A DNA stretch of 64,000 nucleotides from an uncultured Armatimonadota bacterium (GTDB taxonomy: Bacteria > Armatimonadota > Fimbriimonadia > Fimbriimonadales > Fimbriimonadaceae). The stretch covers positions 62,001-126,000 of the forward strand of contig CAIYLG010000012.1 in assembly GCA_903927025.1 (NCBI GenBank), read 5' to 3'. Of the stretch, positions 49,902 to 54,219 are shown piece by piece. Both the position numbers and the translations under genes were made by a program. A model generated the notes under the pieces. The model was given only the letters and a program-made list of their open reading frames with translations, searched no databases and was not told the DNA's origin. The first letter of the stretch is position 1, and each line of letters opens with the position of its first letter.

Positions 49902-52007
49902 TCACAGCCCGAGAATCTTCTGAATGAGCGCCTTTTGCGCATGGAATCGATTTTCTGCTTGGTCAACGACCTTGGATTGAGGTCCATCGATAACCTCTTC
50001 GGTCACTTCAAACCCTCGTCGTGCGGGCAGGCAGTGGAGGAAAATGGCGTTCTTATCCGCGATCTCCATCACCTTGCCATTCACCTGATATGGCTCGAAT
50101 ACCTTGAGGCGATGGTCCTGTTCGTGCTCGTCCCCCATCGACACCCAAACGTCCGTGTAAACCACGTGGGCTCCGGTGAGACCCTCTTCCAAATTGGTCG
50201 TCTGGGTCATCCCCTCAATGGGTTCGAGCCGGAAGTTCTCAGGTCCGCAGATGGTGAACGGATGTCCCAGCCGGGTGGCAAGCTTGGCGAGTGACCGGGC
50301 CACATTGTTGCCGTCACCCACGTAGGTGATCTTGACCTTGTCGGTGCCAAAAGACTCCTGAATCGTCTGCATATCCGCCAGTGCCTGGCAAGGATGCTCC
50401 CATTCGGTGAGGGCGTTGATGACGGGGACTTCTGCCCATTGTGCCAACTCGGTCAGGTGCTTCTGCCAATAGAGTCGAGCCACGATGAGGTTGCACCATC
50501 GCGAAAGATTCTGGGCGATATCCTTGATGGGTTCTCTTGAACCCATCGCGATATCTCCCTTTCCAAGATGGATCGGCTGGCCGCCCAATTCTCGGATTGC
50601 GGCTTCAAATGAGACTCGTGTTCGAAGCGACTGCTTTTCGAAGACCATCGCCACCGTGCGATTTTCGACGCCGGTGATGACGGCAGGGGCGACCTTCCTT
50701 CGGTGCTTGCTGAAAGCGGCAAGGTCAAGAATCTCTTCGATCTGAGCAAGAGAGAGGTCGTCAATCGAGAGGAAGTCGTGCAGGGGTGCTGGCGATACCT
50801 TCACCGTTGCCGTCTTAGGAAGAACTGGTGCGGTCACCTGGATGACTTCTGCGATGATTCCGAGCGCATGCTCGATCTGCTCTTCCGTCACGATAAGCGG
50901 TGGCACAAATCGGAGGCAATACTCGTCGGTCGCGTTGATGATCAGCTTTTGCTCAAAGCATTTCTTAACAATGTCCCGGGCGATTGGCTGCTCGAGCTGA
51001 GCTCCGATCATAAGACCTCTGCCGGATACGGCAAACCCCATCGAGGTCAGAGCGGTTTTAAGCTTCTCACCCAACTCGGCGGTCTTCGTGAGCAGGTCCT
51101 GGTGCTCGATGGTGTCGATCACCGCGAGGGCTGTGGCACAGGCGAGAGGGTTTCCGCCAAAAGTGGACCCGTGATCGCCTGGTTCAAGAATCTCTGCGGC
51201 CTTACCGGCGGCCATCGTTGCGCCTATTGGGACTCCGCCAGCCAAAGCCTTTGCAGTGACCACGACATCAGGCTTGAGATCGTGATGCTGGTACGTGAAC
51301 CATTTGCCTGAGCGACCCATGCCGCACTGAATTTCATCCAGCATGAACAGAGCGTTGTGTTCCTCACACAGGTTCTGCGCCTCATGGAGAAATTCTGGAG
51401 TGAGCTCCAGGATGCCACCCTCGCCCATGATGGGTTCGAGGAGGATCGCCGCCACTTTGTGCGAGAACGCGTCTCGGAGCTCTTCAATGCTGTTTGGCGC
51501 GATGTGCACGAACCCAGGCACGATCGGCTCGAAGGGCCGCTGATACTTTCGCTGTCCGGTTGCAGACAGAGCACCGAGCGATCTTCCGTGGAAGGACCTC
51601 TGAAGGGTGATGATGGTGTAGTCCCCGTCTGGTCGCTTAGAATTGCCGTGCTTCTTGGCGATTTTGAGGGCGCACTCAATTGCAGTGGCGCCGCAGTTTG
51701 CAAAGAACACCCGGTCCATCCCGCTTATCTTGCAGAGCTTTGCCGCCAGTTGGGCCTGGGGTGCGGTCAGCAGGATATTCGAAGTGTGGATAAGTTGCTG
51801 AGCCTGGCGAGTGATGGCTGCTACAACGGCTGGGTGGCAGTGCCCCAATTGGCATACCGCGATTCCGGCAAGCAGGTCTAGATACTCGTTGCCTCGGTTG
51901 TCCCAGAGGCTGCATCCGGATCCCTGAACGAACAGCGCGGGCATCCGGTTGTAGGTATGCATCACATACTGGTCGTCGGTTGATTTGATAGTGTCGTACT
52001 TGAGCAT
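49902..52007 (-). CDS. argD-argF: Fused acetylornithine aminotransferase - ornithine carbamoyltransferase
   Basis: A single frame of 701 residues encodes two arginine-pathway enzymes. Residues about 1-395 are a class III PLP aminotransferase: RVFFANCGATAIECALKIAK, EPIMGEGGI, FMLDEIQCGMGRSGKW and the PLP lysine in VTAKALAGGVPIGA. Residues about 405-701 are an ornithine carbamoyltransferase: carbamoyl-phosphate loop FEKQSLRTRVSFEAA (STRTR replaced by SLRTR), EHPCQALADMQTI, DVWVSMGDE for ornithine binding and HCLPARRGFEV. The linker (about 395-410: PVLPKTATVKVSPAP) has no stop or start. AAGGAATCA precedes the ATG. ArgD makes N-acetylornithine and ArgF uses ornithine two steps later, so an acetyl-removing enzyme (ArgJ or ArgE) must be encoded elsewhere. 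The two genes are normally separate. Confidence 0.93.
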   Translation of the reverse strand: MLKYDTIKSTDDQYVMHTYNRMPALFVQGSGCSLWDNRGNEYLDLLAGIAVCQLGHCHPAVVAAITRQAQQLIHTSNILLTAPQAQLAAKLCKISGMDRVFFANCGATAIECALKIAKKHGNSKRPDGDYTIITLQRSFHGRSLGALSATGQRKYQRPFEPIVPGFVHIAPNSIEELRDAFSHKVAAILLEPIMGEGGILELTPEFLHEAQNLCEEHNALFMLDEIQCGMGRSGKWFTYQHHDLKPDVVVTAKALAGGVPIGATMAAGKAAEILEPGDHGSTFGGNPLACATALAVIDTIEHQDLLTKTAELGEKLKTALTSMGFAVSGRGLMIGAQLEQPIARDIVKKCFEQKLIINATDEYCLRFVPPLIVTEEQIEHALGIIAEVIQVTAPVLPKTATVKVSPAPLHDFLSIDDLSLAQIEEILDLAAFSKHRRKVAPAVITGVENRTVAMVFEKQSLRTRVSFEAAIRELGGQPIHLGKGDIAMGSREPIKDIAQNLSRWCNLIVARLYWQKHLTELAQWAEVPVINALTEWEHPCQALADMQTIQESFGTDKVKITYVGDGNNVARSLAKLATRLGHPFTICGPENFRLEPIEGMTQTTNLEEGLTGAHVVYTDVWVSMGDEHEQDHRLKVFEPYQVNGKVMEIADKNAIFLHCLPARRGFEVTEEVIDGPQSKVVDQAENRFHAQKALIQKILGL

Positions 52008-52243
52008 TGATTCCTTCGTTTAAGTGGCCATGACTGCGCAATTTGGCGCGAGTCGAAGAACGAGAGGCTGAGGGGAGACGGGGTGCGGATTAGGCGCTGG
52101 GCGGTTTGCCCGACTCCCCTAGATACGTGGCGTACGACGGCGCAGCTGGCGCGGAAGCGGCGCTTTGGTGTTGAGTCCCAATGTCGGGGAACCACCTGTC
52201 ATCGTTCTAACCATACCTGAAATACATATTCATCAGGAAATCC

Positions 52244-52387: not shown

Positions 52388-52528
52388 ATGACTAAGAAGA
52401 TTTTCGCGCTCGTGATGGTGGTCAGCGTTCTCGGTGCATTTTTGGCTGGATGCAAGAAGGATGAGGCCGGAGCTGACAGCGCTTCAGCTGCATCGTCCGC
52501 AGCTTCGTCCGATTCTGCAACCAAGTAA
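52388..52528 (+). CDS. Tiny lipoprotein, 46 aa
   Basis: The 46-residue product has a signal peptide (KKIFALVMVVSVLGAFLAGC) with lipobox LAGC. The mature part is about 25 residues: KKDEAGADSASAASSAASSD then SATK, a low-complexity Ala/Ser/Asp chain. AGGAGG lies seven bases before the ATG. A near-consensus promoter, a structured leader and a strong terminator surround it, so it is probably highly expressed. It resembles entericidin- or Lpp-like small lipoproteins in layout only. Confidence 0.8.
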   Translation: MTKKIFALVMVVSVLGAFLAGCKKDEAGADSASAASSAASSDSATK

Positions 52529-52615: not shown

Positions 52616-53161
52616 CTACAGGTTTTGTAGCTTTTGCGCCGTCTCTTTGACTTTTGCGCTTGCCGAATCGTATTCCGACTCAGCGTCTTTCAACTTTTTC
52701 TGAAGATCTTGATATTCGGCGTCGGCATGCTCCAGCTTCTCGCGAACATCCTGGACCGATTTTGTGGCGTTGTCTTTAACTTTCTTCGCCTCCGCCACCT
52801 TGTCATCCATCTCCTTTTGGAGTTTTTTGATGTTGAGGGCTGCCTCCAATCTCTGGAGCTGATCCTTCACGGAGTCTAACTTCAGTGAATCGAGGCTGGT
52901 AGGCGCTTTGATCTCCGACAGTTTTGTCTTAACGTTTTCGAGACTCGACTTGGCGGATTCGATCGCCGGCTTGGCAGAATCCAGATTGATGTTTGCCGCC
53001 TGCTTTGAGGCGCTCTGCCAAGCCTTGCTGGCAAAACCTGCCGCGGTACTCATTGCAGCCTTGCCCTGAGCCAAGGCTTGATCCTGTTGTTTTTGGTCAC
53101 AGCCCGCCACCCCGATTGCCAAGGCAATCAGAACGGGGGCTGCTTTTTGTATCGTTTTCAT
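52616..53161 (-). CDS. Coiled-coil lipoprotein
   Basis: A 181-residue lipoprotein (signal PVLIALAIGVAGC, lipobox VAGC). The mature chain is almost wholly helical and rich in Lys, Ala, Glu, Ser and Gln, with heptad-like patterns (LEAALNIKKLQKEMDDKV, VQDVREKLEHADAEYQDL). No known domain. Its start overlaps the stop of the nucleotidyltransferase gene (ATGA), so it is made from the same mRNA. A structural or periplasmic spacer role is inferred. Confidence 0.75.
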   Translation of the reverse strand: MKTIQKAAPVLIALAIGVAGCDQKQQDQALAQGKAAMSTAAGFASKAWQSASKQAANINLDSAKPAIESAKSSLENVKTKLSEIKAPTSLDSLKLDSVKDQLQRLEAALNIKKLQKEMDDKVAEAKKVKDNATKSVQDVREKLEHADAEYQDLQKKLKDAESEYDSASAKVKETAQKLQNL

Positions 53162-54090
53162 CCTAGGTAATCGCCGTGGAGGATTTCAGATTGAATATCT
53201 CCATCGGACGATACGGGGCCACCAAGGATTGCGTGGCGAATATTTCCCTTCACCTTTACATTTGCGCCGGGAAGAATCACGGAATCCTCAATGGACTCAC
53301 ACTCCAGCGTGGCACCCTCGCCTACTACGACGTTGGCGCCGAGCGTGCCCTTTACGGAGGCAGATGGATCGACAATCGTGGCGCCCTTAATCTGAAATGC
53401 GCTGGTCTCAAGGTAGGAATCCAGCGTCCCGGTGTCAAACCAGACGCCCCCGTAGACACCAGCAAGGACGGTTTCCCCCTCGTTGATCAGGGTTTGAATG
53501 GCATCGGTGATCTCGTACTCGCCACGTGCGCTTGGCTGCAGATCTGGCAGCACGCGCCAAATCTTTGGGCTAAAGAAGTACATTCCCGCCATTGCGAGGT
53601 TGCTCTGAGGATTTTTTGGCTTTTCTTCCAACCGAACGATTCGGTCCCCTTCGACGTTTGCAACGCCAAATCGAGAGGGGTCTTCCACCTCTTTCACGAT
53701 GTTCAGATTTGCGCAGCCGCTATCCAGAAACCTCTTGGCGTGGTCGGCAAATCCTTCGCTATACACGGCGTCACCAAGATACAGCACAAAGCTGTCCTCT
53801 CCCACAAAATCCTTGGCGAACCCAACCGCATGGGCCAATCCCTTTGGATCTTCCTGCTTGACGTACGTGAGGTGAACGCCAAAGGCTGAGCCATCGTCAA
53901 GCGCCTCGCGCATTTGACCTTCGTTTTCTCCAACGACCACGCAGATGTCGGCAATGCCCATCTCTTTCAGTCGGTCGAACGCGTACTCAATCGTAAGTCG
54001 ATTTGCAATCGGCAAAATCGGCTTGGGAATGATGCGGGTGACGGGATACAGACGGCTGCCCTTTCCAGCAGCAAGAATTACACCTTTCAT
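53158..54090 (-). CDS. Sugar nucleotidyltransferase (RmlA/GlmU-like) with beta-helix tail
   Basis: A 310-residue enzyme that joins a sugar-1-phosphate to an NTP. The nucleotide loop is GVILAAGKGSRLYPVTRIIP followed by KPILPIANR; the metal Asp is in FVLYLGDAVYSE. Residues about 235-300 are hexapeptide repeats of a left-handed beta-helix (VDPSASVKGTLGANVVVGEG). The ATG at 54090 is preferred over the TTG at 54102. Similar two-domain proteins make dTDP-glucose, UDP-glucose or GDP-mannose-type donors; which one cannot be told. It leads an operon with the coiled-coil lipoprotein, hinting at envelope or polysaccharide biogenesis. Confidence 0.85.
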   Translation of the reverse strand: MKGVILAAGKGSRLYPVTRIIPKPILPIANRLTIEYAFDRLKEMGIADICVVVGENEGQMREALDDGSAFGVHLTYVKQEDPKGLAHAVGFAKDFVGEDSFVLYLGDAVYSEGFADHAKRFLDSGCANLNIVKEVEDPSRFGVANVEGDRIVRLEEKPKNPQSNLAMAGMYFFSPKIWRVLPDLQPSARGEYEITDAIQTLINEGETVLAGVYGGVWFDTGTLDSYLETSAFQIKGATIVDPSASVKGTLGANVVVGEGATLECESIEDSVILPGANVKVKGNIRHAILGGPVSSDGDIQSEILHGDYLG

Positions 54091-54219
54091 AGTTATTACC
54101 AAATCGCAAATAGGCGTTCAAACGTGAGTCGAACCGCAACGATAATACACTGATGACGGGGGCTTGGCCACTCGTAAAAACGGTTCGGATTCGGGGTTTC
54201 GACGGTATTCTGACCAACT

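Follow-up and report, generated by a model that had tools for sequence, protein, structure and literature searches.

The window analysed here, a stretch of 64,000 nucleotides from a member of the Fimbriimonadaceae (a bacterial family of soils and fresh waters), carries on its minus strand an open reading frame of 701 codons, opened by an ATG, in which acetylornithine aminotransferase (ArgD) is followed by ornithine carbamoyltransferase (OTC, ArgF). The features of the locus are as follows.

49902..52007, minus strand: gene for the ArgD-OTC fusion (701 codons and a stop codon); 31 genomes have a matching uninterrupted architecture
52012..52016, minus strand: possible Shine-Dalgarno sequence AAGGA, 4 nt 5' of the ATG, read from the sequence
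50835..51983, minus strand: ArgD (acetylornithine aminotransferase) domain, residues 9-391 (TIGR00707, Aminotran_3)
51249..51251, minus strand: K253, the lysine expected to bind PLP (AKxLxGG), unchanged across 27 fusions
50781..50834, minus strand: linker, residues 392-409, poorly conserved in sequence and nearly constant in length
49905..50780, minus strand: ornithine carbamoyltransferase domain, residues 410-701 (TIGR00658, NF001986, OTCace_N, OTCace)
50616..50630, minus strand: carbamoyl-phosphate loop SLRTR, residues 460-464; FEKQSLRTR fits FxKxSxRT
50133..50153, minus strand: ornithine-binding SMG loop DVWVSMG, residues 619-625 (DxxxSMG)
50025..50036, minus strand: HCLP motif, residues 658-661, from the alignment
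53158..54102, minus strand: sugar-nucleotidyltransferase-like gene upstream of the fusion, a syntenic marker at many fusion loci and two split loci

A preliminary description of this DNA had reported both enzymes in one frame at exactly these coordinates and length, to which we add the strand. Its further statement that the frame contains no internal stop or start holds in part: there is neither a stop nor an ATG between the domains, but two in-frame GTG codons (V393 and V403) lie in the linker, with no ribosome-binding site evident at either. The ATG at the head of the gene is backed by the conserved N-terminus MLKYDTIK in an alignment of 27 fusion proteins. The ArgD domain is joined to a canonical OTC domain by a flexible linker of 18 residues, which places the junction where it had been expected, near 50800; linker identity between the window protein and its relatives is 22-33%, and AlphaFold pLDDT falls below 50 at residues 397-409. 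The AlphaFold model, for which 27 fusions were used, shows two folded domains, with a mean pLDDT of 80 and a pTM of 0.62, and is of moderate confidence and silent on assembly. The gene lies outside any arg operon, and the window holds no other arg genes beside it. A small lipoprotein-like ORF (MTKKIFALVMVVSVLGAFLAGCKK...) faces it on the plus strand at about 52400-52525, and a similar small gene occupies the same place at locus L059 of genome G023.

Both halves keep their catalytic motifs, as the preliminary description had it, with catalytic residues invariant in 27 fusion proteins. The ArgD half scores 454 bits on TIGR00707 over residues 14-389 (curated cut-off 410), and its best PDB matches are ArgD structures, for example Thermotoga 2ord. 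R142, D224, Q227, K253, G280 and T282 are invariant, and K253 is presumably the PLP-binding lysine by analogy with class-III aminotransferases. The presence of argJ, argC and argB in the genome is consistent with N-acetylornithine, rather than ornithine, a LysW adduct or succinyl-diaminopimelate, as the likely substrate of this half. The OTC half exceeds its curated cut-offs over residues 410-700 on both TIGR00658 (325.7 bits against 280.9) and NF001986 (360.3 bits against 306), and its PDB sequence matches are OTCs, such as 3gd5. The OTC motifs FxKxSxRT, HPxQ, DxxxSMG and HxLP (PMC4581275) are all present, as FEKQSLRT, HPCQ, DVWVSMG and HCLP; SLRTR, HPxQ, DxxxSMG and HCLP are invariant among the 27 proteins. 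The carbamoyl-phosphate loop had been singled out for reading SLRTR rather than STRTR. The loop is indeed there, but we reject the idea that it is an oddity: the residue between S and R in FxKxSxRT is a free position (PMC4581275), and SLRTR also occurs in the phylum's standalone and neighbouring unfused OTCs.

The architecture is shared by 31 of the 291 Armatimonadota genomes, all within the Fimbriimonadaceae, the window's own family; outside the Armatimonadota, one contig scan tuned to the window sequence found no fusion. The relatives are 57-82% identical to the window protein. Thirty of the 31 fusions are free of any stop, and in the remaining one (G008, locus L036) a single in-frame TAG falls in the OTC half and leaves the junction clear. 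A stop at the linker, which would have undermined the fusion, was looked for in the assemblies and none was found, the junction being uninterrupted in all 31 genomes. The ArgD and OTC halves are both under purifying selection: in pairwise comparisons with four relatives dN/dS is roughly 0.01-0.1 for each, dS being close to saturation or saturated. That the fusion is an artefact of sequencing, assembly or gene calling is almost inconceivable, even though metagenome bins make up most of the comparison set and G008 has its internal TAG: the same continuous frame runs through 31 genomes of many species with variable linkers, single-contig assemblies (G007, G154 and G155) among them, and this, together with purifying selection on each half, excludes an assembly artefact and leads us to reject the artefact reading for the fusion class as a whole.

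The window's own genome (5.25 Mb, 98.4% complete) appears to depend on the fusion for two steps of arginine synthesis. A six-frame search recovered the fusion and six weaker matches. The only OTC-like one among these (L005) is pyrB, which adjoins pyrC and scores as an aspartate carbamoyltransferase (ATCase); the rest are distantly related class-III aminotransferases, one of which (L002) adjoins an aldehyde-dehydrogenase-like gene. This search of the assembly turned up no further argD or argF, and the possibility that intact separate genes make the fusion redundant is rejected, the nearest homologues being pyrB and unrelated class-III aminotransferases. The assemblies fully support the initial proposal of a natural ArgD-ArgF fusion that is not redundant. 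Contig C58 carries argC and argJ side by side, while argB lies on C26, argG on C15 and argH on C20; no match to N-acetylornithine carbamoyltransferase (AOTCase) was found in this genome. With argC, argJ, argB, argG and argH all present, the genome is equipped to go from glutamate to arginine by way of ArgJ, and the fusion supplies the ArgD and ArgF steps. There is a practical warning here for annotation, as single-domain searches can yield apparent standalone argD and argF genes where there are none, or lead to one of the pair being recorded as absent.

Which route the fusion serves is best judged from its company in other genomes. Within a 61-genome comparison that includes 37 members of the family (19 with the fusion, 18 without), ArgJ is present in 18 of the 19 fusion genomes and in 1 of the 18 others (Fisher p about 2e-8, ignoring relatedness), whereas AOTCase occurs in none of the 19 and in 12 of the 18 (Fisher p about 1e-5, ignoring relatedness); the ArgJ association is phylogenetically clumped, and the effective sample is far below 37 genomes. 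There is one exception on each side. G016 (94% complete) has ArgJ, and no fusion was found in it. G008 (89% complete) has the fusion, and neither argC nor argJ was found over the cut-off; its stop codon and these absences may reflect either pathway decay or sequencing error. Because the fusion tracks ArgJ and never occurs together with AOTCase, it probably belongs to the ornithine route, in which ArgJ would act after the first half and before the second, and the two arginine routes are mutually exclusive inside one family and even one genus. The identity of the alternative route as that of AOTCase is indicated by NF003384 scores of 358 and 391 (cut-off 288) in two genomes only. Genomes G002, G003 and G010 (L077, L079 and L081) and 10 more have AOTCase without ArgJ or the fusion, and at L077 the AOTCase gene is adjoined by argC, an aminotransferase gene and argB. 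At loci L062-L067 (G035 and genomes of family f5) OTC and argH are present and argC and argJ were not found over the cut-off, which suggests that arginine may be made there from ornithine of another source.

If the carbamoyltransferase half were itself an AOTCase acting on N-acetylornithine, the fused steps would be consecutive and ordinary substrate channelling would account for the fusion. Close relatives do run the AOTCase route, with the proteins of G002 and G010 giving the two NF003384 scores above, and their AOTCases carry SLRTR as well. We nevertheless regard this reading as very improbable and reject it on motif, score and genome co-occurrence: (i) the fusion half passes the OTC cut-offs and must fall under the NF003384 cut-off of 288, since that family is missing from its top 25, where the lowest listed score is 239.8 bits; (ii) it has the DxxxSMG ornithine loop and FxKxSxRT (PMC4581275) and (iii) ArgJ is present, and fusion and AOTCase are found together in 0 of 19 genomes. 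The standalone OTC of G023 likewise gives 146 bits on NF003384 (cut-off 288). The preliminary description was thus right that the ArgD and OTC steps are not consecutive, for the genome has ArgJ for the intervening step and an OTC half that bears the ornithine motif and is no AOTCase.

With regard to origin, the fusion is accounted for simply by argD and argF being neighbouring genes. In six Armatimonadota genomes of other families (G065, G067, G105, G116, G117 and G219) argD and argF are adjacent and in frame, with just one stop codon and a short spacer between them; these pairs match the fusion in enzymes, order, strand and frame and differ from it by one stop, and hence in yielding two proteins. 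Similar neighbours occur in plasmid records of several phyla and in Verrucomicrobiota, where locus L021 reads argC-argJ-argB-argD-argF-argG as separate neighbouring genes. The plasmid pairs, from several records, and those of L021 and L022 share the enzymes, order and strand of the fusion but again encode two proteins; L021 and L022, which had appeared as fusions in a first table, were rejected as such. From the six one-stop pairs and a second, apparently independent fusion, it is likely that the window's gene arose through loss of the stop between adjacent in-frame argD and argF genes. In a tree of the OTC half the Fimbriimonadaceae fusions and G023 form one clade (support 100/100), and a single fusion event in the ancestor of this lineage is the best explanation of the sequence data; the Fimbriimonadaceae fusion is old and conserved.

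The second fusion is that of G071 and G074 (L105 and L106), from another Armatimonadota family. It shares the domain order of the window protein and is uninterrupted, and in G074 both halves are above the family cut-offs. It is, however, only 43-44% identical, has a different linker and a carbamoyl-phosphate loop reading SLRTK, and its locus in G074 (L106) also holds argB, a GNAT-type acetyltransferase gene and argH. As both of its halves lie outside the Fimbriimonadaceae fusion clade, it is apparently the product of an independent event.

Two genomes look like one-sided losses from a once-fused gene. G023 (L059) has the OTC half only, 67% identical and at the fusion locus, where it shares the upstream nucleotidyltransferase and a flanking gene with the fusion loci. 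G036 (L061) has the ArgD half only, also at the fusion locus, and has AOTCase. G023 nests within the fusion clade, a tree excluding it being rejected (AU p 0.007), and excluding G036 together with G030 is likewise disfavoured (AU p 0.039), both tests having been run after the first trees had been inspected. Remnants of the missing half were looked for in G023 and G036 and none was found. In G023 argC and argJ over the cut-off were not found, and the missing ArgD half would be the one unneeded by its remaining pathway. Retention of ArgD beside AOTCase in G036 hints at a second ArgD role, for example in lysine synthesis. One phylum thus offers a rare natural series that runs from neighbouring genes one stop apart through two separate fusion events to partial loss in two later cases.

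We favor the view that the fusion is likely a bifunctional enzyme of arginine biosynthesis, with both halves inferred to be active. By established enzymology, the ArgD half would make N2-acetylornithine, a separate ArgJ would move the acetyl group onto glutamate and so free ornithine, and the OTC half would carbamoylate ornithine to citrulline. As a whole, the account of a bifunctional enzyme with ArgJ acting between its halves, one origin by stop loss and a second, independent lineage strikes us as highly probable. What the cell gains is a separate matter. Because many relatives lack the fusion and two retain one half only, the fusion as such is not essential. We infer fixed 1:1 production and co-location as the benefit, which may lie in the 1:1 production, in co-location around ArgJ, or in nothing at all.

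The last of these, that a stop codon was lost between adjacent genes and that the tethering is selectively neutral and of no functional benefit, is a serious contender, if not the one we would choose. The argD and argF genes are neighbours in many bacteria, six Armatimonadota are one in-frame stop codon away from fusion, and either half can survive alone, as in G023 and G036. What argues the other way is that fusion became fixed twice, independently, in one phylum and has lasted long, through several genera, and, more weakly, that the other arg genes do not adjoin the fusion, such that operon maintenance alone does not hold the pair together.

The preliminary description had held that simple channelling cannot explain the fusion. 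That is too strong, given that a complex with ArgJ could still bridge both steps. Free ArgD enzymes are dimers. Most anabolic OTCs are trimers (PMC4581275). If a single polypeptide is to keep both interfaces, at least six copies of it would be needed. Such a parity problem is met in CAD, where trimeric ATC and dimeric DHO are modelled as a dimer of trimers and the protein dissociates upon mutation of either interface (PMC9863657); by this analogy we would expect hexamers (dimers of trimers) or larger assemblies. It is conceivable, if rather unlikely, that assemblies of this kind act as a scaffold that holds ArgJ and channels acetylornithine through ornithine to citrulline. A chain whose interfaces are unsatisfied below six copies, as CAD is modelled (PMC9863657), the association of the fusion with ArgJ and a linker conserved in length and not in sequence are consistent with this, but the oligomeric states are borrowed from homologues and ArgJ is encoded on another contig than the fusion. 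More doubtful still is the specific proposal that a self-assembling ArgD/OTC hexamer or larger particle docks ArgJ between its halves as a three-step arginine metabolon. In any case the fusion lends itself well to asking why enzymes of non-consecutive steps become joined: through neutral loss of a stop, for the sake of a fixed stoichiometry, or to scaffold the intervening enzyme.

There is precedent for fusions in the arginine pathway, even of non-consecutive enzymes; the new element is the ArgD-ArgF pairing, of which no description was found in the open-licence PMC papers searched, those on Armatimonadetes and ornithine carbamoyltransferase included, though an earlier account elsewhere is possible. 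In marine gammaproteobacteria argH(A) fuses argininosuccinate lyase to an N-acetylglutamate synthase domain (PMC1382215). Like ArgD-OTC, it is a natural fusion of non-consecutive arginine-pathway enzymes in one bacterial group, with operon adjacency the suggested cause; unlike ArgD-OTC, it joins the last and first steps, and its acetyltransferase is often redundant with argA (PMC1382215), whereas the search of the window's genome gave no argD or argF besides the fusion. The argA-B gene of Xanthomonas encodes a bifunctional N-acetylglutamate synthase-kinase, shown biochemically (PMC1865377), and so also places two arginine-pathway activities on one bacterial chain, the bifunctionality of ArgD-OTC being predicted; its steps, 1 and 2, are consecutive, and its domains are unrelated to those of ArgD-OTC. 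CAD (CPS2-DHO-ATC) of animals differs more widely, in that it belongs to the pyrimidine pathway, covers consecutive steps and contains ATC rather than OTC. Nevertheless, CAD ties a trimeric transcarbamylase to a dimeric partner enzyme through a linker and is modelled as hexamers, and it is in this respect a plausible structural analogue of the fusion (PMC9863657, PMC4581275).
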